This document shows positions 577-30,589 of a DNA stretch of 53,805 nt, in pieces. Made by a program: the position numbers and the translations under genes. This stretch comes from an uncultured Acholeplasmatales bacterium (lineage in GTDB: Bacteria > Bacillota_I > Bacilli_A > Acholeplasmatales > UBA5453). Location: contig CAKMJY010000010.1 in assembly GCA_927433595.1 (NCBI GenBank), positions 1-53,805 of the forward strand, given 5' to 3'. Position 1 is the stretch's first letter. Each line of letters begins with the position of its first letter. The notes under the pieces are model-generated. The model was not told the DNA's origin. It made no database searches and worked only from the letters and a program-made list of their open reading frames with translations.

Positions 577-1461
577 TTAATCCCTCTCTCCTAGAATTTT
601 TTGTGTCACTTTCGATAACGAATAGACAATTAACAATAGTGCAACGCTCACTGCCGAAGCATAGCCCATGGCATATCTGATGAACCCGAAGTCTTCAATA
701 TGGTTGACAATTAATTGCCCAGCATATTGAGGTGTTGGGTTAGACCCAGATAGCGCAACCCCAATACCACCGGCTTGGAATGTACCAACAACGGCCATAA
801 CCGCACCGAATAGCATTTGCGGACGCATTTGCGGGATCGTAATATAAAAGATTTCTTGTGTTCTATTCTTAATACCATCGATATAGGCTGCTTCATAAAG
901 GGTTTGGTCAATATTCAAGACCCCCGCTAACATCGCAAGGAACCCAACACCCATACTACTCCATAAAGAGACCACAATCATGATCGTCATTAAATAGTCA
1001 GGTGATTGTAAGAACTGAATTGGTTCTAATATAACGCCCCAGTTCATCAACCAGCTATTTAAATACCCATTGGCATCACCAGAGAATATAATACGCCACA
1101 TTGAAGCAAGCGCTACCCCCATGGTTAGAGATGGTGAATAAAGAATAATGGCTAAAACCGTTCTAGGTTTAGATGGAATTTGTGCTAACATCCAAGCCAG
1201 TAAAAATGATAATAAGTAACCAACTGGACCAACGATCAATGCAAATCGAATGGTATTAGGTAATACATTTTGCATGAATACGGTGTCCATGGTGATTAAT
1301 TCAATATAGTTTGTGACTGCAATATAGTTTGGTGTTTGAATGGCGTTAAAGTACGTTAAGGATAACCCCATTGCAATGATCACCGGTACAATGATGAATA
1401 CTGCAAATAATGTCCAATACGGTACGATAAACCATGCTGGATGATTCATTCTTTTAAGCAT
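577..1461 (-). CDS. Carbohydrate ABC transporter permease, MalF/LacF type
   Basis: 294 aa, six TM-like segments, EAA-type loop ([27 protein letters not shown]). Confidence 0.9.
744..982 (-). repeat. Intact malF segment duplicated at 1-239
   Basis: See feature 1-239. Confidence 0.85.
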
Positions 1462-4400: not shown

Positions 4401-4543
4401 GCGACCACATAAATAACCAGTACGAGTGACAGTACCGATAGTATGGTTTTCTTTGCCCCAAACGCGACAAAAAATGCTTTTATATCCTTCCAAAGCTTTG
4501 ATAAAAAACGAATCACTTTCGTGTTCTTCAGGCGTTTTCTCAT
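1454..4543 (-). CDS. Membrane-anchored large protein: N-terminal TM, two beta-sandwich/CBM-like regions, helical linker, C-terminal extracellular solute-binding protein (family 1-like) domain
   Basis: 1029 aa; N-terminal TM ([18 protein letters not shown]); C-terminal SBP features ([24 protein letters not shown]...[19 protein letters not shown]...[17 protein letters not shown]). Overlaps the permease gene start by 8 bp. Confidence 0.85.
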
Positions 4544-4567
4544 AAATTACCTCCAATAGATATGATA

Positions 4568-4592
4568 TCAAGAGGGCGTTATGCCCTCTTGA
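4568..4592 (-). other. Perfect 10-bp intercistronic hairpin TCAAGAGGGC-ataac-GCCCTCTTGA
   Basis: Perfect inverted repeat between SBP stop and next gene; no clean U-tract follows it on the minus strand. Confidence 0.85.
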
Positions 4593-4607
4593 CAGTCATT
4601 TAATATC

Positions 4608-6044
4608 TTATTCTGCGCCTAATGCGGCGATTTCTTGTTGTACTAATTCATTTGCTTTAAGGTTCCATTGTTCAGCAAATGTAGGTACTGCAGTTGGACC
4701 TGCAGTTTGTAACTCAGTCCATCTGTATGGATTTTCAGGATCTGAAACCCATGCCCAGAAAGTCTTATAGCCTGCTAACCATTTGTCAAGGTCAGGTCTA
4801 GCATTTGAAATACGGTCTAATGTATAATCAATACCTTCGATACCGTCTACTAGTGCATCTACTCTGTCCCAAACGCCTGGATAATCAGCCATTGGGAATC
4901 TGTCAAGATAGACAGGTGTTTCGCCAGCTAATTCAGCTGCTGCTTTGTCTTCTTCATATAAATCCAATCTTGCATTCCAACCATCTTGACCAAATGTCAT
5001 CCATTTAGCTAGTAGGAATGCTTCTTCAGGATATTTAGTTTGAGCAGAAACAGCTTGATAGTCTAAGATGGTAGGTGGGAATAAGCCTTCTGATCCAGAT
5101 GGATATGGCCAGAATCCCATGTTTATACCATTGTCTTTTGCTTCTTGTAATACCCAGAATTGCCATGAACCTTCGATATCCATCGCTGCATAACCAGTTT
5201 GGATAACGTAAGTTTGTAATGCTGGTGTATCTGCCCAGTCTTCTTCAGGATATCTAGAAGTAACACCTAGGTTATTTTCATAGTTATCGATTTCAACTTT
5301 AGCTTGCATTGCGGCAATCCACTCAGCATCTGTGTAGTTGAATTTTGTACCATCCCAGGTGTCATAACCATAAGATGTGTTGTTCATCATTGGCCATACT
5401 TGTTGGAAGTCTGGTGAACCATACCATGTGTCAAAACCGATGACTAAGTTTTCAGTATTAACAATGTCATAGTTTGTAATTGCTTTTGCAATTTCAACAA
5501 ATTCTGAATGTGTCCAGTCTTTAACAGGATAACCATTTTCATCTAAACGGAATTTACCCGCTTGTGATGTTAACCCAGAGTTTTCGAAAATATCTAAGTT
5601 AATGAAAATCCCTTTTAAGAATTGGAACGAAGGTACCGCATAACGGTGACCATTATAAACGGCTGTTGTTGCGATATCGTCATAAATCATTTGTGCGTCT
5701 GCATCTTCATCCCACATATCTGCTAAGTCAAGTGTTAAACCGTTTAGTACGATTGTTGGCACGTTGTCTGTTGCGAATACGTCAGGTAGTAGACCAGCTT
5801 GCGCTGCATTGACCAAGTTGCCAGTAAACTCAGCACCTGATCCTGTGATATCTTGACGCAATGTTACACGGATATTTGGATATTTTTCCATGAACTTGTC
5901 AAGCATGCGTTGATTGAATTCAGGGTTGCCCCAGTCCGCATATGTTAATTCGATGTATTTAGTTGTTGTACCACCGTTGCCACCGCATGCTGCAAGTGTT
6001 AGTGCTACAAAACCAACCATCATTAATGTTAATAATTTTTTCAT
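4608..6044 (-). CDS. Sugar ABC transporter substrate-binding lipoprotein
   Basis: 478 aa, signal peptide and lipobox (MKKLLTLMMVGFVALTLAAC), family-1 SBP fold features. Confidence 0.93.
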   Translation of the reverse strand: MKKLLTLMMVGFVALTLAACGGNGGTTTKYIELTYADWGNPEFNQRMLDKFMEKYPNIRVTLRQDITGSGAEFTGNLVNAAQAGLLPDVFATDNVPTIVLNGLTLDLADMWDEDADAQMIYDDIATTAVYNGHRYAVPSFQFLKGIFINLDIFENSGLTSQAGKFRLDENGYPVKDWTHSEFVEIAKAITNYDIVNTENLVIGFDTWYGSPDFQQVWPMMNNTSYGYDTWDGTKFNYTDAEWIAAMQAKVEIDNYENNLGVTSRYPEEDWADTPALQTYVIQTGYAAMDIEGSWQFWVLQEAKDNGINMGFWPYPSGSEGLFPPTILDYQAVSAQTKYPEEAFLLAKWMTFGQDGWNARLDLYEEDKAAAELAGETPVYLDRFPMADYPGVWDRVDALVDGIEGIDYTLDRISNARPDLDKWLAGYKTFWAWVSDPENPYRWTELQTAGPTAVPTFAEQWNLKANELVQQEIAALGAE

Positions 6045-6054
6045 TGATTATCTC

Positions 6055-8571
6055 CTAAGCAAATACTTGATAAAGTAAGATTTCAGAAATTGTAAATACG
6101 CCAGCTTCGCTTACAAAACCTTCGCCAAGACCACCAAAGTCAAATTCAAATTTAACTTGATCAGTAATGTCATTTGCGACAACAAAGTCAACATATACTA
6201 CTTTTTCTTCATTTGCAGTTACTGCTACATCTTCTTTAGTGCCTTCTAGAATAGATTGGTAACCCCATGCAGGGACAACCATGTTAATTCTTAGGTCTCT
6301 AGTTACAGATGAAGTAACCACTACTTTAAGTCTGTATGAACCGGCTACTAAACCATTTAACATTTGGTAAACGTGTGGTTGATAAGCAGCTGCTAATGCA
6401 GTTACTGTAACGACTGCTTCGCCTTCAACTCTAGTCATAGAACCTTCGCCACCGCCTGCATTGTCATAAACCCAACCAACAACTTGGTTACCTTGGCCAT
6501 TTTTAATGATTTCAGGTGCTTCAGCAACTTTTTCTTTTAATGAAAGGTTATCTAATGTAACAACACCTGCTGCATAAGCTGGTGTAGTACCAAGCTCAAA
6601 GCTTAATACTAAGCCTGCATGGTCAGCTTCTGTGACTGTGAATTCAAATGTTTGTGACACAACTGCTGTTGTGATTGGTGATGCTAATTGTTCAAAGTAT
6701 GATAAGTAAGAACCTGGCACGAAAATCTTCACGTTCATGTCTCTTGCAACAGTTGCACTGACATCAAACTTAAGTTCGTATGTTTTGCCATTTTCTAAAG
6801 CGATACCGTCTTGGTTAAATTGAATTGTCCAAGCTGCACCTTCACTACCTGGTGAAACGATGTCTAGGATATGCGCATTGTTTTCTGTGTAAGTCACTTC
6901 TGCTGCAGTACCCCAGTCTTGGCTCCATAAGTAGAAACCTTGATTATCAAAATTAGTATTTACTAATAATTCATCTAATAATGCTTCTTGAAGTTTAATA
7001 TTGTCAAATGATACCACGGATGCTGCAAATGCAGGTGTAGCACCTAAGTCAAATTCAAACTTAGTGTTTTCTGCAGTTTTTTGAGCTGTAAATACCACTT
7101 CAATTGTTTGCCATTCAGTTGTGACATCGATAGCAGCTAATTTAGTGAATTCATAATAACCTAGACCTTCATTTGTAATAACAAAGTCAATGTCTCTTGC
7201 AACAGTAGATTTAACATCAAATGATGCTTTATATGTTACGCCTTCTTCTAATAATGGTAGTAATTGTACAAATTGAATTGTCCACGCTGCACCACCAGAA
7301 CCTGAAGCTGTAATATCCATTTCATAAGTGCCTTCTGTTGTGTTGATTGCACCTGTAAATGCTGCAGGTGTATCCCAATCTTGACCCCAAGTTGTCCATT
7401 CTGCTGGATCACCTAAAGCCGCTTCGAAGTCACCATTGACAATTAAGTTAGTTTCAGAGAATTGCATACCAACGACAGCAAGTGTTACCACGAATTCTTC
7501 GCTATTGCCAGCTGCATCTTCAACTGTATACGTTAATGTGTAAACTGCTTCAGCAGACGTGTCCACTGCAGTAACGACTGCTTGAGAACCATCTTTGATT
7601 TCAACTGTAATTTGGTCAGTAACATCACCATCAACAATGTCAAATGCTGTTACGCCAGCCATTGGATCGAATGTGCTATTTAATAATACGGTCTTATCAG
7701 CAGTTAAACCTGTGAATGTAGGTGCTGTTGTATCTGGGTCAGCAGTTGCTTCTTCGATTGTGATGTCATCAAACCAAAGTGTTGCATCTACTTTTTGTCC
7801 ACCGAATGTACCTAATTCGAATAAGATACCACCACGTGTATTTTCTTCAGGTTGGTTCATTGTAAATTTGTACGAATAAGTTGCCCATTCAGTCGTGATG
7901 ACTTTAGAAATTGCTAAACCAGGTTTGAAATCTGTAAACCAAGGTGCTGATGTTAATAATTCACCAACTTGTAGGTTTATTTCTTTTTCAACTGAAGACT
8001 TAGCTTTGAATGTGATTTCATAAGTCTTACCATTTTCGAATGGTACGTTCATTTGGCCAAATCTTGGTGTATAAACGTTTGAACCAGCGACAACGTCTAC
8101 TTTTAATGCGCCATCTTCAGCAGTAATTTCCATTGCTGCGCCATCGGCTACATAGTTAACAGCTGGATCTGTCCAACCGCCTGTACCTGCTGAGAAGTCA
8201 GGGTTAATTAACATTTGTCCTTCAACTTGTTCAGGATTTAATACGGTTAAATAACGCCATTTTTCAGCGACAAATTCGCCTACAGTTACCACATATTTAA
8301 TGGCTACTGCACCGACTGCTTGTGTATCTAACATGTGAGTGCTTGATACTGTAGCTGTTGTAACATAAGTGATTTGATCTGTGTAATCTACACCGTCATC
8401 CCCTGTAGCTGTTACGCCAGCTAATACATTAAACTCTGAGTTATAAGCGATGTCCATCTTGTCGCTTGTACCGGCGAATGTAATACGTGATAATTTGGCT
8501 TCTTCTTGACAACCAGCAAGTATTAATACGCCTAAAACAGATAATGCTAAAATCATAAATACTTTTTTCAT
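6055..8571 (-). CDS. Multi-domain surface lipoprotein: Ig-like/DUF5011-like domains plus four CBM4_9-like carbohydrate-binding repeats, no recognisable catalytic domain
   Basis: 838 aa; lipobox LGVLILAGC; repeated pattern NGDF...W...GAAWTIQF...GKTYELKFDVSATVARDMN...FELG...DNLSL starting near aa 121, 376, 535 and 697; Ig-like domain near aa 283-368. Confidence 0.85.
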   Translation of the reverse strand: MKKVFMILALSVLGVLILAGCQEEAKLSRITFAGTSDKMDIAYNSEFNVLAGVTATGDDGVDYTDQITYVTTATVSSTHMLDTQAVGAVAIKYVVTVGEFVAEKWRYLTVLNPEQVEGQMLINPDFSAGTGGWTDPAVNYVADGAAMEITAEDGALKVDVVAGSNVYTPRFGQMNVPFENGKTYEITFKAKSSVEKEINLQVGELLTSAPWFTDFKPGLAISKVITTEWATYSYKFTMNQPEENTRGGILFELGTFGGQKVDATLWFDDITIEEATADPDTTAPTFTGLTADKTVLLNSTFDPMAGVTAFDIVDGDVTDQITVEIKDGSQAVVTAVDTSAEAVYTLTYTVEDAAGNSEEFVVTLAVVGMQFSETNLIVNGDFEAALGDPAEWTTWGQDWDTPAAFTGAINTTEGTYEMDITASGSGGAAWTIQFVQLLPLLEEGVTYKASFDVKSTVARDIDFVITNEGLGYYEFTKLAAIDVTTEWQTIEVVFTAQKTAENTKFEFDLGATPAFAASVVSFDNIKLQEALLDELLVNTNFDNQGFYLWSQDWGTAAEVTYTENNAHILDIVSPGSEGAAWTIQFNQDGIALENGKTYELKFDVSATVARDMNVKIFVPGSYLSYFEQLASPITTAVVSQTFEFTVTEADHAGLVLSFELGTTPAYAAGVVTLDNLSLKEKVAEAPEIIKNGQGNQVVGWVYDNAGGGEGSMTRVEGEAVVTVTALAAAYQPHVYQMLNGLVAGSYRLKVVVTSSVTRDLRINMVVPAWGYQSILEGTKEDVAVTANEEKVVYVDFVVANDITDQVKFEFDFGGLGEGFVSEAGVFTISEILLYQVFA

Positions 8572-11500
8572 TTGGCTTCCTCCCTATTTATAAATACATT
8601 TATTTCTAAAACGTTGCCTAAGCGAACGTCCGATGCCCATAATCCAATGTTACTGCCTTTAATCCAGTGAGACCCTTCATGGTTAATCACTTCAATGTCT
8701 GTGATCACTGCTTTATCATCATATGTATTTAAGCCAAGTGGATTCACATAAGTGATTTTTTGGCCATACAGTTTAAATGACGCTTTACCATCTTTGAAAT
8801 ACTTCTTGTGCAGTTTAGGTCTAAATGTTAAGCTTAAACCATTGTCAGTCATTTCAAATGGTTTTTTACCAATGAACATTTCTTTATACATCGATAACAT
8901 TTCTGCAGTCGATCCAGATAATCTAGATACGAACCCTTGACCATGTTTACTTGGGTCTGGGTTGGTCGATGTTGCTAAGAAACTGGAGTTTTCAAGTGGC
9001 GATCTGCCATACACTTCAGGATCCATAAAGCATACCAAGTTTGTATCTAGTTCTTCATAGAATTCATCATATAAACCAGCTTTAATCAAACCTAATAAAT
9101 ATTTATATGTCATATGTAAGAAGTTTGATTCACGTTCTAACCAACCTTTGGTAAATGCTCTAATACGGCCAATCTCATTCGAGAAAGCATCTAGCGATAC
9201 AGAAGTTTGATAGAACTTTTGTTTTTTATCGTAGAGTTCACTTGCTTTAATCGCCTGATAAAGTTTCTTTGCATACACTTTGTCATTGGTTTGTTTTAAA
9301 AATCTTGCTGGTGCTTCTAGGAATGCTGGGATTTTTACCATCTTGAATGCATTGATATGCACAAGTGGTAACCCGTAATGACCGATCACAGGTTCATTGT
9401 TTGATAAGATTTGTTCAAATTCAGTCGCTTCAAAGGTTAGATAAGTTGGCACAATATCGTCTAAGTTAATCGCCTTTTCACTAGCTTTCTCTAAATCATG
9501 TTCAATCTTTTCTAGTAGTTTTAAAACGGATTTTGAAGAAACTTTCGATAGAGTAACAGGGCTTAGTAATGCTTTTCTATAAGCTTCAAGTGCAGTTACT
9601 CTTTGGTCCCAAAGCTTATGCCCATCCCCAGTTAGTTTTTCATAGGCTGCCATTAAATCTAATAATGGTGTTAAGACTTCTATGTTGTGATCTTCTGCTT
9701 TAGCAAAAGCATCAACTAAGAAATGGTTTAGTTTCTTTAGCTCAAACATTTCTGATACACCAGAACCAAATAGACCTGGTAAACCGTTCATGGCATCATT
9801 CCAACCTGGTTTATTCGCTTCATAAGACAAGCCAATACCAGCAGGGTCTAATAGACCATATTTATTTAATACAAGTGTGACTAATTTAGACGCGAGTTCT
9901 ACTTCAATTGGTTTGTTATCTAACAAGAGGAAACTGTGGTCACCTTTAAAGTGATCAAGTGCACCATATTGTCTGACTTTACCATCTTTGGTTAAGACAT
10001 ATTTTTCATGTCTTGGTCTAACGTATGTATGACTGTCGAAGAATTGATAACGTTTATCTTCAAACAACAGCTTTTCTTGATGTTCAGGGTAAATATCTAA
10101 GTAACCTTCTAATAAATCATACAAGTAGGTAAAGTGGTCATTCCAATACCCTTCACCGAATGAGGCTTTGATGATTGGTTTTGAATCCTTTAAGATGACA
10201 AACATCATCGATTCAGCTTGTTGTTTATCATACCCATGGTCAATCAGTGCTTTATAGACTTGACCAGGTGTGAATGTTTGTTTTAGTAATGCTTGAGTGC
10301 CTTCATACGCCATTTGACCGACATACTTAAATTGTAATCCTTCAATCGATAGAGGATTATATCCATCTGCACCAATTAAGGATGCAAAGTGCCATAGGTT
10401 ATGGTCTTTGACGAATGGATGGAACCAAGTATCATTTCTTCTATTTTGAAGGACATCTCTAAAGTTACCATTACCTTGTGAGTAAAATTCTGGTGCAATC
10501 GAGAAGAAGTTATAATCTCGTTCTAGGTCACCATGTTTTCTAGAGAATAGATGGTAACTCACTTGTTGTCCTTTGGTTTCGAAGTTAAATGGTTCACCAC
10601 CTCTTAATAGATTATCTAGGTAACATTGTTTTAAGTAAGCATCAAATAGTGGTAATGCAGTTTCTGTTTCAATGTTGCTCGTTAAATCGTCGTGTAATTG
10701 TTTGTTTTCAATTTCTTTATGGTTTATATAATTTTGGTTTGTCTTACCAACAAACGCTTTTAAGATTTCTAAGTCAGATGTATAACCAATCAGTGCTGAA
10801 AATGTGAATGTCTTCTCTAGTTTTGTTTCATATAGTGAGAAGGCACATGGCACTTGGTTAACAGTCACTTGTGGTTTATGTGATAATTGCTTACTGCTTT
10901 GATACATAAAACCATATGGTTTGGCAAAAGATGTATCTTGTTCAAACACCATTTTTGTATCGGCGATGATGACTGGTTTCGCATCATCTGAGATTGGCAG
11001 GTAATAATTACCATCTGTCACTTCACTGACTTCTGCTGAGTCGCCAGTGGATGCTCTTAGTTTATAAAAAGCATACCCTTTTCCGAAATCAACGTCCATC
11101 CAACTTTGTAATAAGTTTGAGATGGCTTTGAATCCGCCGTAATCAATACCAGAAGGTAAGATTTGGGTTAATCCATCTAGGACTTCAATGTCTTTTTGAT
11201 CAAAACCAACGTTTTCAACGATGACTTTTCTAACCAATGCACCAAGTGGTTCATTTGGTAATGTAAAATACTTCACGGTTACTTTGATGCCAACCGTTTC
11301 GTTTGTCTCACAAATTGACACTGCTTCACGGTCAACCATGAGTTTTTGATTTAGGTTTTCTTCTTTGAAAAACTCATACGTTACGCCATTGACTTTAATG
11401 AATGTTCTAAATCCAATGGTCTTGGTGTACATGTAAGCGGCATTCGCTGGGAAGAATTCTAAGATTGCACCATTTTTGTCTTGTCTGCCAAATGAGGAGA

Positions 11501-11636
11501 TCAATTGACCTCTGTTCACATAGAAACTCCACATTGGTATCCCGTCTTTACCAGCAATACCTGGTAAGAAACTAGAAAATGGCTTATGTTTTTGATAATT
11601 TGTCTGTATAAATGTTTGTTGCTGGTTTTGTTTCAT
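8568..11636 (-). CDS. Large glycoside phosphorylase-like protein (GH94/GH149/GH161-type (alpha/alpha)6 enzyme), candidate beta-1,3-oligoglucan phosphorylase
   Basis: About 1022 aa from ATG at 11636 (GGAGG at 11643-11647); motifs SFLPGIAGKDGIPMWSFYVNRGQ, EFFPANAAYMY, catalytic-like GWNDAMNGLPGLFGS. ORF-track start at 11684 lies upstream of an operator-like site and is probably not the start. Confidence 0.75.
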   Translation of the reverse strand: MKQNQQQTFIQTNYQKHKPFSSFLPGIAGKDGIPMWSFYVNRGQLISSFGRQDKNGAILEFFPANAAYMYTKTIGFRTFIKVNGVTYEFFKEENLNQKLMVDREAVSICETNETVGIKVTVKYFTLPNEPLGALVRKVIVENVGFDQKDIEVLDGLTQILPSGIDYGGFKAISNLLQSWMDVDFGKGYAFYKLRASTGDSAEVSEVTDGNYYLPISDDAKPVIIADTKMVFEQDTSFAKPYGFMYQSSKQLSHKPQVTVNQVPCAFSLYETKLEKTFTFSALIGYTSDLEILKAFVGKTNQNYINHKEIENKQLHDDLTSNIETETALPLFDAYLKQCYLDNLLRGGEPFNFETKGQQVSYHLFSRKHGDLERDYNFFSIAPEFYSQGNGNFRDVLQNRRNDTWFHPFVKDHNLWHFASLIGADGYNPLSIEGLQFKYVGQMAYEGTQALLKQTFTPGQVYKALIDHGYDKQQAESMMFVILKDSKPIIKASFGEGYWNDHFTYLYDLLEGYLDIYPEHQEKLLFEDKRYQFFDSHTYVRPRHEKYVLTKDGKVRQYGALDHFKGDHSFLLLDNKPIEVELASKLVTLVLNKYGLLDPAGIGLSYEANKPGWNDAMNGLPGLFGSGVSEMFELKKLNHFLVDAFAKAEDHNIEVLTPLLDLMAAYEKLTGDGHKLWDQRVTALEAYRKALLSPVTLSKVSSKSVLKLLEKIEHDLEKASEKAINLDDIVPTYLTFEATEFEQILSNNEPVIGHYGLPLVHINAFKMVKIPAFLEAPARFLKQTNDKVYAKKLYQAIKASELYDKKQKFYQTSVSLDAFSNEIGRIRAFTKGWLERESNFLHMTYKYLLGLIKAGLYDEFYEELDTNLVCFMDPEVYGRSPLENSSFLATSTNPDPSKHGQGFVSRLSGSTAEMLSMYKEMFIGKKPFEMTDNGLSLTFRPKLHKKYFKDGKASFKLYGQKITYVNPLGLNTYDDKAVITDIEVINHEGSHWIKGSNIGLWASDVRLGNVLEINVFINREEAK

Positions 11637-11647
11637 TCTAATCCTCC

Positions 11648-11660
11648 GGAAATCGGTTTC
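11648..11660. promoter_or_regulatory. LacI-type operator GGAAATCGGTTTC (site 1)
   Basis: Near-palindrome GAAA-TCGG-TTTC with central CG; abuts the Shine-Dalgarno of the 8568-11636 gene; same core at 11724 and 16472. Confidence 0.75.
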
Positions 11661-11702
11661 TTCATTATTCAAAATTAGGAGCACTATGTGCTACCTATTT
11701 TG

Positions 11703-11716
11703 TTAAAACGCTTACA
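11703..11716. promoter_or_regulatory. cre-like / LacI-family site TTAAAACGCTTACA
   Basis: 13 of 14 positions fit TGWAANCGNTNWCA. Confidence 0.45.
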
Positions 11717-11723
11717 TATCTAA

Positions 11724-11736
11724 GGAAATCGGTTTC
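11724..11736. promoter_or_regulatory. LacI-type operator GGAAATCGGTTTC (site 2)
   Basis: Identical 13-mer to site 1, just downstream of the predicted promoter. Confidence 0.8.
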
Positions 11737-11753
11737 TTTAATTCCCTATTACT

Positions 11754-11782
11754 ATCATAGCATATTATGTAATCGTTTACAA
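11754..11782 (-). promoter_or_regulatory. Sigma-A-type promoter TTGTAA-N17-TATGAT for the phosphorylase/CBM/ABC operon
   Basis: -35 at 11777-11782, -10 at 11754-11759, 17-nt spacer, upstream of the operon. Confidence 0.6.
11768..11781. promoter_or_regulatory. cre-like site TGTAATCGTTTACA overlapping the -35
   Basis: Full 14/14 match to TGWAANCGNTNWCA. Confidence 0.65.
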
Positions 11783-11793
11783 GTATTTTTATT

Positions 11794-12807
11794 TCATTTT
11801 GTGGTGTCTCTTTTTACTAAAGTAACTGGCATCAAAGTTAATGCCTCTACTTTTTCGCTTTTATGGTTTATTAAGGTTAACAAGGACCTTGCTGCCTTAT
11901 GCGCAATAGCTTCTCTATCTTGTCTAATTGTGGTTAGACTTGGTGTAAAGTGTCTTGCAAATGCGATGTCATCAAAACCAATGATTTGAATGTCTTCAGG
12001 AATCCTGATTTTTTGTTCTTGAAGTGCTTTTAATACCCCTAAGGCAATGTCATCTGATCCGACTAGTAATGCTTCAGGCAGGGTTTTAGTTTGTTCAAGT
12101 AACTTATATACGGCATTATAACCAGATGTAAAACCAAATGACTCCGCTTCAACAATGAATGCGTCATTTATATCTTTATGGTGTGTTCTAAAGTATGATT
12201 TATAGGCTTGAAAACGTTCAACGAAGGCTTTAGAGGACTGTGGTCCTGTAATCATGCCCACGCTTTTGACTTGTTGTTCATTAAACAAATAATCCAGGCT
12301 AATGTTAATCCCTAACACGTTATCTGAAATGATAGAGTGGATACCCGGAATGATGATATCGGTTGAAACGACTGGAATGTTCATGCTCGCAAGCTCATAA
12401 ATACCTTGGTCGTCATAATCGCCAACCACAATATAAACACCATCGACTTTTTTATTCATGCACCATTCATAGTAGCTCATTTTATTCTTGCCTAATCTTG
12501 AGACAATAAACGATAACTCGTACCCTTCTTTTTCAACATAATTTTTAAAATGTTGTAAGATGCTGGAAAAAAATGAGTGTTCTAGTCCGATATGTAATTC
12601 TTCAGAGAATACGACACCAATCGTATAACTTCTTTTAGACTTTAACATTCTGGCGGATGTGACTGGCACATAGCCTACTTCTTTAATGTATTTTAAGACA
12701 CGTTCTCTCGTGTCTGAAGATACATTCCCGGTTTGATTTAATACTTTAGAGATGGTACCAGGTGATAACCCTAAATCTGCAGCAATTGTGTAAATCGTGC
12801 GTTTCAT
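11794..12807 (-). CDS. LacI/GalR-family transcriptional regulator
   Basis: 337 aa; N-terminal HTH (TIYTIAADLGLSPGTISKVLNQTGNVSSDTRERVLKYIKEVGYVP) and periplasmic-binding-like effector domain. Confidence 0.96.
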   Translation of the reverse strand: MKRTIYTIAADLGLSPGTISKVLNQTGNVSSDTRERVLKYIKEVGYVPVTSARMLKSKRSYTIGVVFSEELHIGLEHSFFSSILQHFKNYVEKEGYELSFIVSRLGKNKMSYYEWCMNKKVDGVYIVVGDYDDQGIYELASMNIPVVSTDIIIPGIHSIISDNVLGINISLDYLFNEQQVKSVGMITGPQSSKAFVERFQAYKSYFRTHHKDINDAFIVEAESFGFTSGYNAVYKLLEQTKTLPEALLVGSDDIALGVLKALQEQKIRIPEDIQIIGFDDIAFARHFTPSLTTIRQDREAIAHKAARSLLTLINHKSEKVEALTLMPVTLVKRDTTK

Positions 12808-12809
12808 GT

Positions 12810-13547
12810 TTATTCACTTCTTTCGTATACTCTCACATATTTAAATAACATCGATACTGGAAATATTGAATCGTCAATCGTACTGCCCCACCAACCACCT
12901 AATGCAATATTTAAGATGAGGTAAAATGGTTGGTCAAATGGCCAGCCACCTTCATCGGTCATGCGGTGTTCATCCCCTTTATGGAATGTCACGTAATGCC
13001 TTTTATCGGTGAAGAATGAAAACTGTTCTTCGTCCCATTCAAAGGCATATTCATGAAAACCGGTTGCTAAGCTTTGGTCTTCAATGACTTTGGTGGGTTG
13101 TTGATGATTGTGGTGATTATAAGACTTTGAATGTAGTGAGAAATGGACTACACCTGGGTTATGACCAACGTGTTCCATTAAATCTATTTCACCACATAGC
13201 GGCCATGAGACACCTTTTTGAAATGAGTTAGGCAATAACCAGATTGCTGGCCATGTGCCTTTACCAAGTGGTAACTGCGCCATCACTTCAACGCGGCCAT
13301 ATTGAATGCTTTTTTTACCATAGGTCGTTAGTTTCGCACTTGTATACTGTCTATTTTCATACGCTTCTTTTTTTGCGACAATATGCAACAAGCCATCTTT
13401 GACAAAGGCATTATCGAGTTTATCTGTATAATACTGATCTTCACCATTACCAAATCCATGTCCACCTGTTTCAAACTGCCAGATTGACTCATTTGGTTTG
13501 CCGTCTTTGTCAAACTCATCCGACCAAAGTAATTTATATGATGCCAT
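12810..13547 (-). CDS. GH16-family beta-glucanase (laminarinase/licheninase type), no signal peptide
   Basis: 245 aa; GH16 active-site motif GEIDLMEHVG; WSDEFDKDGKPNESIW start; N-terminus MASYKLLWSDEF leaves no room for a signal peptide. Confidence 0.92.
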   Translation of the reverse strand: MASYKLLWSDEFDKDGKPNESIWQFETGGHGFGNGEDQYYTDKLDNAFVKDGLLHIVAKKEAYENRQYTSAKLTTYGKKSIQYGRVEVMAQLPLGKGTWPAIWLLPNSFQKGVSWPLCGEIDLMEHVGHNPGVVHFSLHSKSYNHHNHQQPTKVIEDQSLATGFHEYAFEWDEEQFSFFTDKRHYVTFHKGDEHRMTDEGGWPFDQPFYLILNIALGGWWGSTIDDSIFPVSMLFKYVRVYERSE

Positions 13548-23487: not shown

Positions 23488-24063
23488 TTGAAAATATATG
23501 CAGTGAGACATGGTCAAACCGACTACAATCAAAAACGCCTGGTTCAAGGCTTTATGGACAATCCACTAAATGATGAAGGCATCAATCAAGCCATTCGTAT
23601 GGGGCACTATCTTAAAAAGCGTGCTTATCCAATCAACCACATCATCACATCACCACTGATTCGAGCACTTAAAACTGCATCGATCATCAAAGATTTGGCA
23701 TATCCGCAGTTACAAATAGAGTTAGCACCAAGCTTTATAGAACGTGATTTTGGCTTCTTTGAAGGAAAATCCGTTGATGAGACCATTAAAGTGATATCAC
23801 AGTTTGGATTTACACATGACAACTACGAAGATAATGACGTCTTTTTAAAACGAATTGCTGAAGGCTTGACTGATTTATATCAAAAACAGCCTAACAATCA
23901 CGTTTTATTAACCGCACATTCACATACCATTAAAGCATTACTCATCCTAGCAGATCCAAATACTTATCATTTTATGACGTTTTTGAACAATGCTAGCCTT
24001 TGTGTATTTGATTACGATGGCAAAACATTATCTGTAGATGAATTTAATGTCGAAGCCGAATAA
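23488..24063 (+). CDS. Histidine phosphatase (phosphoglycerate mutase-like) family protein
   Basis: 191 aa; VRHGQTDYNQKRLVQG, LLTAHSHTIKAL. Confidence 0.92.
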   Translation: MKIYAVRHGQTDYNQKRLVQGFMDNPLNDEGINQAIRMGHYLKKRAYPINHIITSPLIRALKTASIIKDLAYPQLQIELAPSFIERDFGFFEGKSVDETIKVISQFGFTHDNYEDNDVFLKRIAEGLTDLYQKQPNNHVLLTAHSHTIKALLILADPNTYHFMTFLNNASLCVFDYDGKTLSVDEFNVEAE

Positions 24064-24227: not shown

Positions 24228-25145
24228 ATGAATCAAACACAAACGTCTAAACATTTAGATGTTTTATCTAAGCGCAATTTACTGATTTTTGCTTCTGCAT
24301 TGGTCATTTTATTGTGTGCATCGATCGTAATCTTTGGCATACATAGCCTATGGATTGCTTTGGTTGCGACGCTATCAAGCGGTTTAGTCGAGTTCCTTTT
24401 TGCTAAAACCAGAAAAAAGAACTTAGACTTTAGCTTGATCATTACACCACTCATTTTTACCCTAACCATGCCACCAACGGTGCCATTATGGGTAGTCATG
24501 ATTGGGGCTTCATTTGGGACATTCTTCGCAAAATCACTGTTTGGTGGTTTAGGGAAGAATATTTTTAACCCAGCCATGGTTGGTTATATTTTCGTAACCA
24601 TATCATTCCCAAAATATTTAAATACACAGTGGCTAAACCCAGTGACCGATACCATTGGCAGCGCCACACCACTCATCCAGTTAAATGGTGGGTCATTAAC
24701 CTTAACGAATATGCAATTGCTGATGGGGAATGTCCCTGGTTCACTAGGGGAAACATTTAGATTAGGCATCATCATCTTAGGATTAGTATTGATTCTACTG
24801 AAGATCGTTGACTGGCGCATTCCACTTGCACTGCTATCAACCGTATTCCTAGGCAATCTCATTGGTGGTTTCTTTAACGACACCTACTTTAGAGACCCAG
24901 TAACCTCAATGCTAGTTGGTAGCTTATTATTCGGTGCCTTCTTCGTTGCTTCTGACCCAGTCACAGCACCTGAAAAAGGATTATCCAAAGTGCTATATGG
25001 CATTGGTATAGGTGCTATTATCATGATCATTCGTGGTAACCCTGGTGCTTACCCAGCTGGTATGGCATTTGCGGTTGTCATCATGAATGCAGTTGGACCA
25101 CTAATTGACAGTTTGTTTGAAAAGAAAGTCGAGGTAACGTCATGA
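24228..25145 (+). CDS. rnfD: RnfD/NqrB-like membrane subunit
   Basis: 305 aa; covalent-FMN-type motif GSATPL, NPVTD..., RDPVTSMLVGSLLFGAFFVASDPVTAP. Confidence 0.92.
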   Translation: MNQTQTSKHLDVLSKRNLLIFASALVILLCASIVIFGIHSLWIALVATLSSGLVEFLFAKTRKKNLDFSLIITPLIFTLTMPPTVPLWVVMIGASFGTFFAKSLFGGLGKNIFNPAMVGYIFVTISFPKYLNTQWLNPVTDTIGSATPLIQLNGGSLTLTNMQLLMGNVPGSLGETFRLGIIILGLVLILLKIVDWRIPLALLSTVFLGNLIGGFFNDTYFRDPVTSMLVGSLLFGAFFVASDPVTAPEKGLSKVLYGIGIGAIIMIIRGNPGAYPAGMAFAVVIMNAVGPLIDSLFEKKVEVTS

Positions 25146-25735
25146 AACAATACATTAAAATGATGTTGTTTGTGATTCTATTAGGTACCATTGTGTCTGG
25201 CTTATTAGTCGGTATGGATATGTTTACCAAAGATCGTATCGCTAGAAACCAAGAAGCATTGGTTAAATCATCTATTTTGGATGCTTACAATATCGGCTAT
25301 AACTTTAATACTATCTTCGATGTATTTGAAGACAATGTCACTGAAGTCATCGTAGATAATCAAACATTTTACATTGACAATGAAACCAATCAAGTATCTT
25401 ATATCTTTGAAGGTTCTGGTGTATGGGGGCCAATTAAGGCCATCATGACATTAGAATCCGATTTTAAAACCATCGTTGGGATCACCATTTTAGAACAGGA
25501 AGAAACACCTGGTCTTGGTGGGGTATTAGCTGAAAAGCCATACTTAGATACATATGTTGGTACTATCTTGGCAGAAAGCTCACCTTATATCATCATCAGA
25601 CATGGTAGTGGTGAAAACCTCGATAATGAAGTAGATGCCATTACAGGTGGTACAAGAACCAGTGAAGCATTTATGAAAATGGTAAATGAAACCTATCCAG
25701 TTTTCAAAGCTTTATGGGAAAGTAGGGGTGCTTAA
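25142..25735 (+). CDS. rnfG: RnfG/NqrC-like FMN-binding subunit
   Basis: 197 aa; N-terminal TM, EQEETPGLGGVL, FMN-attachment motif ITGGTRTSEA. Confidence 0.93.
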   Translation: MKQYIKMMLFVILLGTIVSGLLVGMDMFTKDRIARNQEALVKSSILDAYNIGYNFNTIFDVFEDNVTEVIVDNQTFYIDNETNQVSYIFEGSGVWGPIKAIMTLESDFKTIVGITILEQEETPGLGGVLAEKPYLDTYVGTILAESSPYIIIRHGSGENLDNEVDAITGGTRTSEAFMKMVNETYPVFKALWESRGA

Positions 25736-25737
25736 CG

Positions 25738-26364
25738 ATGAGATGGATTCGAATCAAATATACAAAAACGTATAACATCTTAAAAGACGGGATTGCTAAG
25801 AGTAATCCAATTGTTATCGCCGTATTAGGGATTTGTTCCTCATTGGCTGTTTCTAACAAAGTAGAAAATGCCATTGCCATGGGGCTTGGTGTGACATTTG
25901 TTGTCATGGCAAGTAGTGCCGTGATATCCAGTATGCGTTCTATCATTCCGCCAAAAGTGAGAATGGTGACTTATATGGTGGTTATTTCAACGTTTGTCAT
26001 CATGGTTCAAATGTTCTTAGATGCCTTCTTCCCTGAAATTGCCAAATCATTAGCGGCTTATGTTGGTTTAATCATCACAAACTGTATTGTCATGGGTAGA
26101 GCTGAGGCGTTTGCAGTTAAAAACCCAGTTAAGTATTCACTAGTGGACGGATTTGCGTCCGGCATGGGCTACATGTTTGTATTAATTGTCGTCTCAGTCG
26201 TAAGAGAATTCTTGGCATTTGGCACAATTTTAAACTTCCAAGTCGCACCAGACACATTCACAAAATGGTCTGTGATGGCTTTAGCACCAGGCGGATTCTT
26301 CGTAATGGCCTTATTCATTTGGGGCATCAGAGAATGGCTTAAATATTATGAGTTAGAGGCATAA
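25738..26364 (+). CDS. rnfE: RnfE/NqrD-like membrane subunit
   Basis: 208 aa; NPIVIAVLGICSSLAVSNKVENAIAMG and GLIITNCIVMGRAEAF with both family cysteines. Confidence 0.95.
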   Translation: MRWIRIKYTKTYNILKDGIAKSNPIVIAVLGICSSLAVSNKVENAIAMGLGVTFVVMASSAVISSMRSIIPPKVRMVTYMVVISTFVIMVQMFLDAFFPEIAKSLAAYVGLIITNCIVMGRAEAFAVKNPVKYSLVDGFASGMGYMFVLIVVSVVREFLAFGTILNFQVAPDTFTKWSVMALAPGGFFVMALFIWGIREWLKYYELEA

Positions 26365-26377
26365 GAGAGGAGATTCC

Positions 26378-26959
26378 ATGGAAAGATTAATTGAAATTTT
26401 TATCGCAACGATTTTAAATCATAACATCGCATTGGTCTATATTTTAGGGATGTGTCCTTTAATAGCCATCTCAACCAATATCAAAAATGCAAAAGGGATG
26501 GGGATTGCGGTTGTCATCGTAGTGACACTAACCGCTATCATCAACTATCCAATTTACCAAATCTTAAAAGCAACCGAAACCACCAGCTTATCGTTATTGG
26601 TCTTCATCATCACGATTGCTGCTACTGTCCAAGTTTTAGAATTACTCATGGACAAGTTTTTACCTAAACTATATAATGCATTTGGTATTTATTTACCACT
26701 AATTACCGTCAACTGTGTGGTACTAGCTGTGTCATTGTTCTTTGTTAATAGAACCTATAGTTTCTCAGAAACAGCCGTATTCTCATTTGGTTCATCATTA
26801 GGGTGGATGCTTGCCATTGTGTTAGTTGCTGGTATTCGTGAAAAAATGTCTAAATACAGTGATGTCCCAAGAGGATTAAAAGGCAAAGGGATTGTATTTG
26901 TCATTTTAGGCATTCTAGCGTTAGCATTCATTGGTTTCACTGGCTTGGCCAGCATATAG
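26378..26959 (+). CDS. rnfA: RnfA/NqrE-like membrane subunit
   Basis: 193 aa; NIALVYILGMCPLIAISTNIKNAKGMG and YLPLITVNCVVLAVSL. Confidence 0.95.
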   Translation: MERLIEIFIATILNHNIALVYILGMCPLIAISTNIKNAKGMGIAVVIVVTLTAIINYPIYQILKATETTSLSLLVFIITIAATVQVLELLMDKFLPKLYNAFGIYLPLITVNCVVLAVSLFFVNRTYSFSETAVFSFGSSLGWMLAIVLVAGIREKMSKYSDVPRGLKGKGIVFVILGILALAFIGFTGLASI

Positions 26960-26968
26960 GAGGTCAAT

Positions 26969-28048
26969 ATGAATATATTTGTACCAATCGTCTTAGTCGG
27001 GGTACTGGTGTTAATTACGTTATTGCTCATCATCATCGATAAATTACTTGGTGGTGGTAAAGAAAAAATACTGTTAATTAACGATGATACAGTCATTCCA
27101 GTAAAGAATGAAGATACTGTATTAAATACGCTATCTGCTCAAAAGATTTATGTGCCTTCTGCTTGTGGTGGTAAGGCAACCTGTGGTTTTTGTAAGTTCA
27201 GACTCATAGAAGGTGGCGGTGAGGTAAAGCCTACAGAATTACCCTTCTTGTCAGCTGAAGAAAGAGATTTAGGAATAAGATTATCCTGCCAAGTCAAGGT
27301 AAAGGATAATATGAAGATTGAAATTCCTAAAGAACTATTAAATGCCCAATCCTATCAAACGAAGGTTGTGTCAATTGAAGATCAAACCTATGACATCAAG
27401 TTGGTGAAGTTTAAACTAATTAATCCAACTGAAATGCACTTTAAACCTGGTCAATATGCCCAAATCAAGGTGCCTGGTATTGATGTGATAAGAGCATATT
27501 CAATCGCTTCAAACCCAAAAGATACCAGTGAAATTGAGTTAATTATCAGACAAGTACCGAATGGACAAGCAACCACATTTGTTCATAAGGCACTAGAAGT
27601 TGGCGATAAGATTACCTTAACTGGTCCGTTCGGTGATTTCTACCTAAGAGAAACTGAACGTGAAATGATTTGTATTGCAGGTGGTTCTGGTAAAGCACCA
27701 ATTAGAAGTATCTTATATTATTTAAGAGACCGCGGTATGAACCGTAAAGTCAAATACTTCTTTGGCGCAAAGTCAAAACGCGATTTATATATGACTGAGG
27801 AGTTCTTAGAACTATCCAAAGCATTCCCTAATTTTGAGTATATTCCTGCGTTATCTGAACCGCTGCCTGAAGATGAATGGCAAGGTGAAGTTGGCTTAAT
27901 TACGGATGTTGTCGATAGATTAACCGATGATTTGTCTGAGGCTGAGGCCTACTTATGTGGCTCACCAGGGATGATCAATGCTTGTAATAAAATATTGACC
28001 AAGCATGATATTAAGCAACACAACGTCTTTTACGATAAATTTAGTTAA
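26969..28048 (+). CDS. nqrF: NqrF-like NADH-oxidising subunit (2Fe-2S + FAD/NAD domains)
   Basis: 359 aa; N-terminal TM, CGGKATCGFC...C 2Fe-2S ligands, RAYSIASNP flavin motif, GGSGKAPIRSILYY nucleotide motif. Confidence 0.93.
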   Translation: MNIFVPIVLVGVLVLITLLLIIIDKLLGGGKEKILLINDDTVIPVKNEDTVLNTLSAQKIYVPSACGGKATCGFCKFRLIEGGGEVKPTELPFLSAEERDLGIRLSCQVKVKDNMKIEIPKELLNAQSYQTKVVSIEDQTYDIKLVKFKLINPTEMHFKPGQYAQIKVPGIDVIRAYSIASNPKDTSEIELIIRQVPNGQATTFVHKALEVGDKITLTGPFGDFYLRETEREMICIAGGSGKAPIRSILYYLRDRGMNRKVKYFFGAKSKRDLYMTEEFLELSKAFPNFEYIPALSEPLPEDEWQGEVGLITDVVDRLTDDLSEAEAYLCGSPGMINACNKILTKHDIKQHNVFYDKFS

Positions 28049-28053
28049 AAATG

Positions 28054-28082
28054 AAGCCAGTCGATTGCTCGACTGGCTTTTC
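28054..28082. terminator. Bidirectional terminator AAGCCAGTCGA-ttgc-TCGACTGGCTT
   Basis: 11-bp perfect stem between convergent genes. Confidence 0.85.
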
Positions 28083-28084
28083 TG

Positions 28085-30541
28085 TTATATAAATAAGTTA
28101 TGGTTTGCAGATTGTGTATCGCCTAAGTAAGTTGCTACGCCGGCAATTTCAATGCCGTCGATTAACTCTTCTTCTTTAATACCCATAATGTCCATTGACA
28201 TGGCACATGCGGTGACTTTAACACCCATATCCATGGCTTGTTTCATTAAGGTTTGTAATGAATCTACATTCTTTTTCTTCATGATTGAGCGGATCATCTT
28301 AGGACCCATGCCCATCATATTCATCTTCGAAATCGGTAACTTATCTGTCCCTCTTGGCATCATGAAGCCAAACATTTTTTCGATGAACGATTTTTTCACT
28401 TTAACACGTTTTGGTTTTCTTAGGATGTTTAAACCCCAGAATGTAAAGAATAATGAGACATCTTTACCCATTGATTTAGCACCATTTGCGATGATAAATG
28501 CAGCAATTGCTTTATCTAAGTCTTCTGAGAACACGACAATGGTTGAGCCATTTTGAGTCGTTGTTTTCGTTTCTACTTGTTTTTTACCTTTTTGAATGTG
28601 TGCGGTAATGACTTTATTTTCTTTGTTTAGATCCAATAAAGCATTGCCTGTTTTTTCTGCCCATGTTTTGATGTCTTTCATGAACCCTGGATCAGACGCC
28701 TTCACTTCTAAGATGTCACCTTCATGCATGGTTTCCATGTTTTTATAGACTTGAACAATTGGACCTGGACATTGTAAACCACATGCATCTACAACCACTT
28801 TTGCAGGTTTGTAGTTAGATGGTTTTTCTTCTGTTTTGGTTTTAATTGGGTCTCCCAAATCATTGACTGGGAAGAAACATACTTCACTACCATTAGAATC
28901 AAATACGCATGAGAATGATTTAAAACCACCCTCTAGGTTTTTAACTTTAAAGCCATGTTGTTTTAAGATACGTTCAGCTGTGTAACCTCTCGTACCGACT
29001 TGGCAATATACGTAGATGGTTTCTTCTTTAGGTAATTCGGATAATCGACTTCTAAGTTCAGTCAGTGGAATGTGGACAGAACCTTGAAGGTAATTAACGG
29101 TTACTTCTGGGTTTTCTCTAATATCTAAGATATATGCACCTTTAGATGCTAATTCTTGAATTTCTAGCCATGTGACCCCATCAGTCATACCTTTTATCTT
29201 ATTTTCTGCCACATAGCCAACCATGTTGACTGGGTCTTTGGCAGAAGAGAATGGTGGTGCATACGCAAAATCAATGTTCTTTAAATCGGTAATCTTCATT
29301 TTTGCATACATTGCGGTTGCCAGTACGTCAACGCGTTTGTCGACGCCATCGCCGCCAATCGCTTGAACCCCATAAATCATTTCTGTTTGTGGGTTATAAA
29401 GGACCTTCATTGAAATGGATTCACTACCTGGGTAGTAACTTGCATGTGAACTTGGGTGAATATAAAGTTTGTCATAAGTCATATTAAGACTCTTAAGCAT
29501 TTTTTCTGATAGACCGGATGATCCAACTGTCTTATCAAATATTTTCGCAACACTGGTTGCTAAAGTGCCTGTATAAGCTTCTTGGATACCACAAATGTGG
29601 TTTGCAACAATTCTACCTTGTCTATTAGCAGGACCTGCAAGTGCTGCTAACATATGTTGTTCTGAGATCACGTGTTTAACTTCAACCACATCGCCAATGG
29701 CATAGATGTCAGGATTAGACGTTAACATGTATTCATTAACGGCTACTGCACCTCTTTGTGTTAATGTTAAACCGGCATTTTTCGCTAATACATTATCTGG
29801 TTTAACCCCAATAGCGAAAATGATTAAATCTGTATCCACAACAGTACCACTGGATAATTGAATACGGTTACCCGCTTGTTCAAATGATTTAACGCCATCA
29901 TTTAAGATGAGGTTAACTCCATTGTCTGCAATGGTTTGATGAATGATTTGAGCCATCTCGTAATCAAACATACCCATGACTTGTGGTGCCATTTCGATTA
30001 AAGTGACTTGAATGCCTAGGTGTGCTAGGTTTTCCATCATTTCAATCCCGATGAACCCACCACCGATGACGGCTGCTTTCTTCGGTTGATTTTTCTCAAT
30101 GTAAGCTTTGATTTCATCCATATCTGGGATATTTCTAAGGGTAAATAAATTCTTTGCCTCAGCGATACCTGGAATTGGCGGCTTAATTGGTTGTGATCCG
30201 GTTGAAATTACGACCTTATCGTAAGTCTCTGTATACGTTTTGCCAGTCCTTAAATCTGTTACTTGGACTTTCTTACTAGCTGTATCAATGGCTGTCACTT
30301 CTGTTAAGTTACGGACATCGATGTTGAATTTTGCGTGCATGTCCTCTACGGTTTGCACGACTAATGCGTCTCTGGATTCAATCACACCACCAATATGGTA
30401 TGGTAATCCACAGTTTGCAAATGAAATGTATTCGCCTCGTTCGAAAAGGATGATGTCAGCGAATTCATCTAATCTGCGTAATCTAGCTGCTGTAGTGGCC
30501 CCACCTGCGACGCCACCAATAATGAGAATTTTGTTCGACAT
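28085..30541 (-). CDS. CoA-disulfide reductase-type FAD oxidoreductase fused to rhodanese, TusA/SirA and DsrE-like domains
   Basis: About 818 aa from internal ATG with GGAGGAG SD; IIGGVAGGATTAARLRRL, ISFANCGLPYHIGG active-site Cys, rhodanese CQVGTRGYTAERIL, TusA VVDACGLQCPGPIVQVYKNM, C-terminal DsrE-like domain. Confidence 0.93.
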   Translation of the reverse strand: MSNKILIIGGVAGGATTAARLRRLDEFADIILFERGEYISFANCGLPYHIGGVIESRDALVVQTVEDMHAKFNIDVRNLTEVTAIDTASKKVQVTDLRTGKTYTETYDKVVISTGSQPIKPPIPGIAEAKNLFTLRNIPDMDEIKAYIEKNQPKKAAVIGGGFIGIEMMENLAHLGIQVTLIEMAPQVMGMFDYEMAQIIHQTIADNGVNLILNDGVKSFEQAGNRIQLSSGTVVDTDLIIFAIGVKPDNVLAKNAGLTLTQRGAVAVNEYMLTSNPDIYAIGDVVEVKHVISEQHMLAALAGPANRQGRIVANHICGIQEAYTGTLATSVAKIFDKTVGSSGLSEKMLKSLNMTYDKLYIHPSSHASYYPGSESISMKVLYNPQTEMIYGVQAIGGDGVDKRVDVLATAMYAKMKITDLKNIDFAYAPPFSSAKDPVNMVGYVAENKIKGMTDGVTWLEIQELASKGAYILDIRENPEVTVNYLQGSVHIPLTELRSRLSELPKEETIYVYCQVGTRGYTAERILKQHGFKVKNLEGGFKSFSCVFDSNGSEVCFFPVNDLGDPIKTKTEEKPSNYKPAKVVVDACGLQCPGPIVQVYKNMETMHEGDILEVKASDPGFMKDIKTWAEKTGNALLDLNKENKVITAHIQKGKKQVETKTTTQNGSTIVVFSEDLDKAIAAFIIANGAKSMGKDVSLFFTFWGLNILRKPKRVKVKKSFIEKMFGFMMPRGTDKLPISKMNMMGMGPKMIRSIMKKKNVDSLQTLMKQAMDMGVKVTACAMSMDIMGIKEEELIDGIEIAGVATYLGDTQSANHNLFI

Positions 30542-30560
30542 AATAGACTCCTCCGAAAAC

Positions 30561-30589
30561 AATATACGCCTATATGAAAAAGATGTCAA
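30561..30589 (-). promoter_or_regulatory. Promoter TTGACA-N17-TATATT for the oxidoreductase fusion
   Basis: -35 (minus TTGACA) 30584-30589, -10 30561-30566, 17-nt spacer. Confidence 0.7.

Follow-up and report, generated by a model that had tools for sequence, protein, structure and literature searches.

Introduction

Gene sets for subunits B to F of the Na+-translocating NADH:quinone oxidoreductase (NQR) that come without NqrA have been remarked upon in Thermotoga thermarum and T. (Pseudothermotoga) lettingae (PMC4148951) as well as in Clostridium ultunense and relatives, where flavin mononucleotide (FMN) was suggested as the last carrier (PMC5924567); NqrBCDEF has further been noted in Candidatus Izimaplasma ZiA1, which came from an iron-reducing enrichment (PMC6256511). 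The acceptor of these NqrA-less complexes is stated as unknown (PMC4148951, PMC5924567). For two-gene systems resembling NQR and the Rhodobacter nitrogen fixation (RNF) complex, a one-way route has been proposed by which electrons of NAD(P)H reach an FMN domain outside the cytosol (Meheust et al. 2021 and a 2024 follow-up; PMC8238504, PMC10979944). The set analyzed here lies at positions 24228-28048 (+) of a contig of 53,805 nucleotides (CAKMJY010000010.1), referred to as the window, from an uncultured bacterium whose genome is placed in the Paracholeplasma group of the Acholeplasmatales, in the genus of Paracholeplasma vituli. It shares with the informal group of NqrA-less complexes the five genes B to F and a genome in which no NqrA was found. 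On balance, and with little more than even confidence, its five products are read as subunits of a complex that has the NQR/RNF core as its basis, is driven by NADH, and exports electrons across the membrane.

Gene Organization and Cofactor Sites

The five open reading frames (ORFs) are all intact, co-oriented, and arranged in the order nqrB-C-D-E-F, as given in a preliminary description of this DNA, and their products are full members of the respective Pfam families. NqrB (24228..25145, +; 305 amino acids) is an NqrB/RnfD-like membrane subunit (PF03116, NQR2_RnfD_RnfE, 2.4e-79), which NCBIfam scores as RnfD with 216.8 bits, above the cut-off, and as NqrB with 164 bits, below it. The start codon of nqrC overlaps the nqrB stop by 4 nt; its product (25142..25735, +; 197 amino acids; PF04205, 1.2e-16) is an NqrC/RnfG-like extracytosolic FMN-binding subunit with a single FMN_bind domain, matching the NqrC structures 3lwx and 7xk3_C. 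Two Rnf-Nqr proteins (PF02508) follow, namely, an NqrD/RnfE-like subunit (25738..26364, +; 208 amino acids; 7.2e-56; aligned with 7xk3_D) and an NqrE/RnfA-like subunit (26378..26959, +; 193 amino acids; 2.3e-52; aligned with 7xk3_E). The last gene (26969..28048, +) encodes an NqrF-like NADH dehydrogenase of 359 amino acids (NCBIfam nqrF, 288.2 bits at a cut-off of 295, E 1e-85; 1.5e-59 against Vibrio cholerae NqrF, 8a1t_F). It is composed of an N-terminal transmembrane helix, a 2Fe-2S part (CX5CX2C...C), a flavin adenine dinucleotide (FAD) part with the sequence RAYSIA, and an NAD domain, corresponding to Pfam Fer2, FAD_binding_6, and NAD_binding_1. A strong intrinsic terminator with a 12-bp stem and a T tail, found by a terminator scan (28053..28080, +), closes the five-gene unit. 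Solved chains of the V. cholerae NQR are matched by 5/5 proteins, and RNF chains also by four of the five.

The ligands of the input module and of the outward path are conserved. In NqrF, the motifs CGGKATCGFC plus a further Cys and RAYSIA are kept in 22/22 relatives checked. Cys33 and Cys116 of NqrD, which make up half of the intramembrane 2Fe-2S site, align with V. cholerae Cys29 and Cys112, and Cys26 and Cys113 of NqrE with Cys26 and Cys120; both pairs are kept in all 22 aligned relatives. The alignments also equate NqrD Asp137 with V. cholerae D133 and NqrE Glu88 with E95, which we take to be Na+-linked residues. The NqrC sequence DAITGGTRTS is, judged by its motif, a proper FMN site, with attachment of FMN-C predicted at Thr171 of DAITGGT (codon 25652..25654, +); the site is kept in 54/55 members of the acholeplasma clade described below, and ApbE is encoded in the own genome. 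The preliminary description had singled out ITGGTRTS as an FMN-type motif, paired cysteines in the D/E-like subunits, CX5CX2C and RAYS in NqrF, and an entry of electrons from NADH; all of these are borne out, the last by an NqrF-like subunit in a unit devoid of an NqrA/RnfC module. In eight clade members, NqrC is enlarged to 354-847 amino acids, and the five of them that were scanned contain 2-4 Pfam FMN_bind stretches, which suggests extra carriers on the outer face. NqrC of the window, with its one domain, is not enlarged.

The NqrB Subunit

NqrB aligns to residues 133-400 of V. cholerae NqrB from window residue 44 onward; therefore, about 89 N-terminal residues are missing, in keeping with the short NqrB remarked upon earlier. 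In current structures, the quinone site of NQR is formed by the amphipathic N-terminal helices of NqrB (PMC12174285), and this segment is absent from the window protein. The preliminary description had placed the quinone site on the side of NqrA, which is not supported by these structures; the lack of the output is therefore as evident from the short NqrB as from the absence of NqrA. F235, F239, and D294 correspond to F338, F342, and D397 of V. cholerae, so that the gate Phe residues and the Asp that have been linked to Na+ function (PMC4014512, PMC12174285) are kept.

The position of the covalent FMN-B site is taken by Thr147 (codon 24666..24668, +; aligned to V. cholerae T236) in the non-canonical sequence DTIGSATPL. 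Compared with the usual form Dxx[S/T]xAT, the window reads D-T-I-G-S-A-T, that is, Gly replaces Ser/Thr at position 4 and the acceptor Thr147 is present. GSATPL had been listed as an FMN-type motif, a wording that is not supported, as the site departs from the textbook form and is eroded in most of the clade. The use of GSATPL as proof that FMN-B is lost in the window was withdrawn, since genuine NqrB rows vary at position 5 (DGYTRATPL, DGFTAATPL). For this reason the site was scored only on positions 1, 6, and 7, and was counted as kept with D/E, A/S, and T/S, respectively. By this criterion, it is kept in 16/52 clade members and lost in 36; the loop is wholly deleted in seven members, which requires three separate changes on the tree. 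Among the members with an enlarged NqrC, FMN-B is lost in 8/8, a count not corrected for kinship. On a single alignment, Dxx[S/T]xAT is found in 22/25 NQR rows, in 5/5 hybrids with RnfC (see below), in 12/17 rows of the other A-less clade, and in 3/30 of the acholeplasma set, and the acceptor Thr is kept in 13/13 RnfD rows.

NqrA, RnfC, and the Quinone Circuit

No NqrA was found above the cut-off in 61 relatives, the own genome included, with the positive control above it; the best matches to the NqrA profile, of about 30 bits or less, fell on RnfC. NqrA was equally missing from the 28 further genomes carrying the five-gene complex. In the window, as in every acholeplasma-type relative that was retrieved, the nqrBCDEF operon lacks RnfB and RnfC, so that none of the three subunits stands beside it, as had been noted. 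A genome search for nqrA, rnfB, rnfC, and apbE had been proposed, with the prospect that nqrA, rnfB, or rnfC at another place would make this an ordinary split NQR/RNF. While nqrA was not found, the other three genes are indeed located elsewhere, on contig G000:C33, at a second PF03116 locus of the own genome. The order there is glyA-rnfC-rnfD-rnfG-(extra multi-FMN protein)-rnfE-rnfA-rnfB-apbE-(NusG-domain-like)-(Gx-transporter-like). The idea of a split RNF/NQR was rejected, because D, G, E, and A subunits of its own make this second locus a whole RNF operon that is separate from nqrBCDEF. Genome G141 (96% complete) contains BCDEF and ApbE without RnfC, and RnfC was also not found in its congeners G312 and G351, being present in G264 of that genus; the five genes therefore seem not to depend on a genomic RnfC. 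As to a quinone circuit, UbiA, for quinone synthesis, was above the cut-off in 0/61 relatives (controls positive in 14/14), and cytochrome bd was likewise found in 0/61 (controls positive in 10/14).

RnfB of the C33 operon (L039:12916-13227) has 103 amino acids, with a membrane anchor, one Cys-rich cluster (CGACGTPGC...C), and, by reading, no Fer4 part; short RnfB proteins of 94-127 amino acids also occur in relatives. RnfG of the same operon has two FMN_bind stretches and is followed by the extra FMN-binding protein of 470 amino acids (L039:9092-11469), and genus g9 of family f3 has open frames of ~1,360-1,440 amino acids with many FMN_bind domains. At L079 and L080 (genomes G042 and G046), RNF operons are present in which RnfA and RnfE have diverged to the point of forming extremely long branches and no rnfB was recognised nearby; these genomes have no nqrF.

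Distribution and Descent

The same unit recurs in dozens of genomes and is therefore not a chance arrangement. It is present in P. vituli and congener G003 and is also carried by Acholeplasma genomes (A. oculi, L093). In a class-wide scan, an NqrD of the operon's type (>330 bits) was found in 48/395 genomes, a tally counted by hand from the listing, with the remaining matches, of the RnfE type of RNF, at <=189 bits. Two families of the Acholeplasmatales, two further families of the class (one of them f16), and one stray account for the 48 carriers; within the Acholeplasmatales, the unit is patchily distributed. The order B-C-D-E-F is invariable in 22 relatives and at 28 additional loci from the class, of which a few are cut by contig ends, and no constant neighbour or sixth gene was found across them. 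NqrD and NqrE are 90% identical over 394 columns to those of congener L061.

In an NqrD plus NqrE tree of 83 rows, without the Thermotoga and C. ultunense sets, all NqrF-bearing complexes group together, separate from RNF (100/100). Within this clade, the acholeplasma set is monophyletic (100/99), with a Tissierellales (L094) and an Omnitrophica locus (L095), then L110 and L106, as its nearest outsiders, and all four have an RnfC-type gene, not NqrA, upstream of nqrB. A second A-less clade (99/98) comprises spirochaetal, clostridial, fusobacterial, cloacimonad, and other sets, and the NqrA-bearing NQR forms a third (100/100), with further RnfC hybrids beside it. In approximately unbiased (AU) tests, one joint A-less clade was rejected with p = 5e-5 and a grouping of the acholeplasma set with the true NQR clade with p = 2e-5; these values are somewhat optimistic, because the groups were named partly after a first tree. 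The NqrF tree is consistent with this picture. The subunit phylogeny suggested in the preliminary description thus places the acholeplasma set outside the NqrA-bearing NQR, and both a single ancestral A-less clade and a loss of NqrA from true NQR are rejected. Most likely, the window complex lost an RnfC-type subunit and would never have had NqrA, since its nearest outsiders carry RnfC and the AU tests reject the placement with true NQR. By these trees, the acholeplasma A-less lineage is derived from RnfC+NqrBCDEF hybrids, separately from the second A-less clade.

The RnfC-type subunit heads nqrBCDEF at L094:4807-6297, L095:4853-6352, L106:4428-5960, L125:4756-6255, and L134:4874-6250. In the hybrid RnfC, both 4Fe-4S motifs are kept, the nucleotide/FMN motif GGxGFPT is lost, and an insert is shared with NqrA; it looks intermediate between RnfC and NqrA, similar to what Reyes-Prieto et al. 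proposed for the conversion of RNF to NQR (PMC4014512). One Cys-Pro of the 4Fe-4S motifs is changed in the L094 protein. For the second A-less clade, upstream ORFs were considered as substitutes of NqrA and rejected: seven of nine are unrelated (ribonucleotide reductase, DUF2207, LemA, Na/H exchanger, glucose-6-phosphate dehydrogenase, formyltetrahydrofolate synthetase, amidase), one has TPR/HTH matches only, and one (752 amino acids) is without match. Downstream of nqrF, members of that clade have a gene of ~150-167 amino acids (L097:7357-7824; equivalents in L102, L107, L109, L116, L119, and L133), which occupies a similar position across many phyla; no Pfam/NCBIfam match was obtained for the one that was tested.

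Proposed Electron Route and Alternatives

As far as the direction of flow, the acceptor, and the coupling can be read from sequence, electrons would pass from NADH to the FAD and the 2Fe-2S cluster of NqrF and from there to the intramembrane 2Fe-2S cluster held by NqrD and NqrE, which would switch outward and deliver them to the FMN on NqrC at the outer face. In NQR and RNF, a return limb then leads via the FMN-B and riboflavin of NqrB/RnfD to quinone or to RnfC/NAD+. In the present complex, this limb is decayed, with NqrA/RnfC and the N-terminal quinone segment of NqrB missing and FMN-B lost in most of the clade, so that the electron would leave from the FMN of NqrC to an extracytosolic acceptor. 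Candidates would be an oxidised metal, a free flavin, a humic or exogenous quinone, O2, a partner cell, or an electrode. NqrB would probably be retained as an ion-conducting or structural subunit, and Na+ efflux may therefore still accompany export in a coupled manner. Na+-type ATPases have been predicted for acholeplasmas (PMC4221730). An exporter is favoured because the input and the outward limb are intact in their NqrF ligands, their four NqrD/E cysteines, and the FMN-C site, because the FMN-B site is lost in most of the clade, including all eight members with an enlarged NqrC, because NqrA, UbiA, cytochrome bd, and the N-terminal segment of NqrB are missing, and because the Na+-linked residues of NqrD, NqrE, and NqrB are kept and ApbE is present. 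Circumstantial support comes from anode biofilms, where Acholeplasmatales rank within the top 10 organisms (PMC7399161) or, in another biofilm, make up 8.5% (PMC6415583), and from the iron-reducing enrichment that yielded an Izimaplasma with NqrBCDEF (PMC6256511). From the earlier suggestion of a minimal or hybrid NADH-driven pump with a different acceptor, the NADH entry and the lack of an NqrA/RnfC module are retained, and the acceptor is probably unusual. A fuller version is put forward tentatively, at somewhat less than an even chance: a Na+-coupled one-way exporter using the outward limb only (NqrF to NqrDE to NqrC) would drive extracellular electron transfer in wall-less bacteria, its A-less form would have been reached twice independently by loss of the RnfC/NqrA-type subunit, and the RnfC+NqrBCDEF hybrids, with their 4Fe-4S motifs kept and the NAD/FMN motif lost, would be relics of the RNF-to-NQR transition.

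Several points weigh against export. NqrB of the window still has the D, the A, and Thr147 of the FMN-B site, and its own return limb may not be fully dead; without that limb, in turn, Na+ coupling is uncertain. No acceptor protein is encoded beside the operon, and a linked acceptor gene next to nqrF was rejected, as the neighbours vary among loci. The own genome (G000, 1.59 Mb) is only 86% complete, so that the absences lean on relatives. The associations with anodes and with iron hold at the order or family level only.

If O2 were the acceptor, a special case of the exporter that is considered unlikely, the complex would be the membrane-bound flavoprotein iron-sulfur NADH oxidase described long ago in Acholeplasma laidlawii membranes. 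A purified membrane NADH oxidase of this species is reported to contain FMN and Fe-S; such cofactors would fit NqrF plus NqrC, and the operon does occur in Acholeplasma. Relatives in Izemoplasma-like and sediment lineages are, however, probably strict anaerobes, and a larger subunit and copper, which are likewise reported for the A. laidlawii enzyme, would be left unexplained.

There is also a small chance that NqrBCDEF borrows its output from RnfC of the second operon and would thus catalyze an NADH- (or NADPH-) driven reduction of NAD+ or another cytosolic acceptor. RnfC is present in nearly all five-gene genomes (24/28 among the further carriers), and sister lineages have an RnfC-like gene directly upstream of B. 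Yet G141, G312, and G351 have BCDEF without RnfC, though G264 of their genus has it, and RnfC would be reachable only via the flavins of RnfD/NqrB, of which FMN-B is lost in 36/52 members as against an acceptor Thr kept throughout the RnfD rows.

An ordinary NQR working with a scavenged or exogenous quinone, in which NqrB still reduces quinone and NqrA is dispensable, is improbable. NqrA contains no redox cofactor, and no direct function has been assigned to it (PMC12174285); Thr147 is present in the window, and an FMN-B site is kept in 15 other members. Against this stand the absent quinone segment of NqrB, the lack of UbiA or cytochrome bd for making or reoxidising a quinone pool, and the loss of FMN-B in most of the clade. 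That the unit is a relic heading for loss and serves no selected function in the species of the window is very improbable, since FMN-B erosion and the patchy distribution within the order would fit this idea, whereas five intact co-oriented genes with a terminator, the high identity of NqrD/NqrE to L061, and the essentially invariant FMN-C and Fe-S ligands would not.

Neighbouring Genes

Upstream of nqrB, a separate gene (23488-24063) is histidine-phosphatase-like by reading. Convergent with nqrF, an 834-amino acid protein is encoded at 28085-30589 (-), which by reading resembles a flavoprotein of the CoA-disulfide-reductase/NADH-oxidase type fused to rhodanese, TusA-like, and DsrE-like parts; an ORF of 823-833 amino acids is found at the equivalent place in L057-L059. 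The region 577-13547 (-) contains sugar ATP-binding cassette transporter parts, a large GH94-like phosphorylase, a LacI-type regulator, and a GH16-like glucanase (12810-13547) and by reading resembles a beta-glucan use cluster. At L092:3065-5786, a further operon with a 499-amino acid NqrB/RnfD-like protein and very diverged RnfE/RnfA-like proteins is located directly upstream of the BCDEF set.

Comparison with Known Systems

What the NqrA-less NqrBCDEF complexes reduce is a puzzle on record, to which the exporter reading offers an answer that is concrete and can be tested. The complex is also a natural dissection of NQR: if Na+ is moved without the NqrB flavin/quinone step, the NqrF-to-NqrC half must contain the coupling site. 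Among the RnfC-bearing relatives, intermediates of the conversion proposed from RNF to NQR seem to have survived. For acholeplasmas, usually seen as simple fermenters, the complex suggests a possible respiration with external acceptors, and their presence on anodes would be in line with this.

Like the sets of Thermotoga, C. ultunense, and Izimaplasma, the window unit has the genes B to F in this order, no NqrA reported, and RNF also in the genome. Those reports remark on the sets in the course of annotation and include neither a phylogeny nor an analysis of sites; what distinguishes the acholeplasma set is a separate A-less lineage, the erosion of its FMN-B site, and a multi-FMN NqrC in some of its members, and its lineage history and flavin-site erosion appear to be new. 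With the Na+-NQR of the V. cholerae type, it shares NqrB-F, the NADH entry at NqrF, the 2Fe-2S site of NqrD/E, the FMN of NqrC, and acidic Na+-linked residues; it differs in the lack of NqrA and of the quinone-binding N-terminus of NqrB, in the FMN-B erosion of its clade, and in the rejected tree placement. RNF has a homologous D/G/E/A core, and NqrB of the window scores best as RnfD, but the window unit is without RnfB/RnfC, has NqrF as its input, and stands in a genome with a separate RNF. The two-gene systems resemble it in the one-way outward flow proposed for them and in an FMN site that is not conserved in the NqrB/RnfD part (PMC8238504, PMC10979944). They consist, however, only of an NqrB fused to an NAD-binding domain and an NqrC-like partner, so that electrons would cross through NqrB, whereas in the window complex nqrB and nqrF are separate genes and the 2Fe-2S route of NqrD/E is present.

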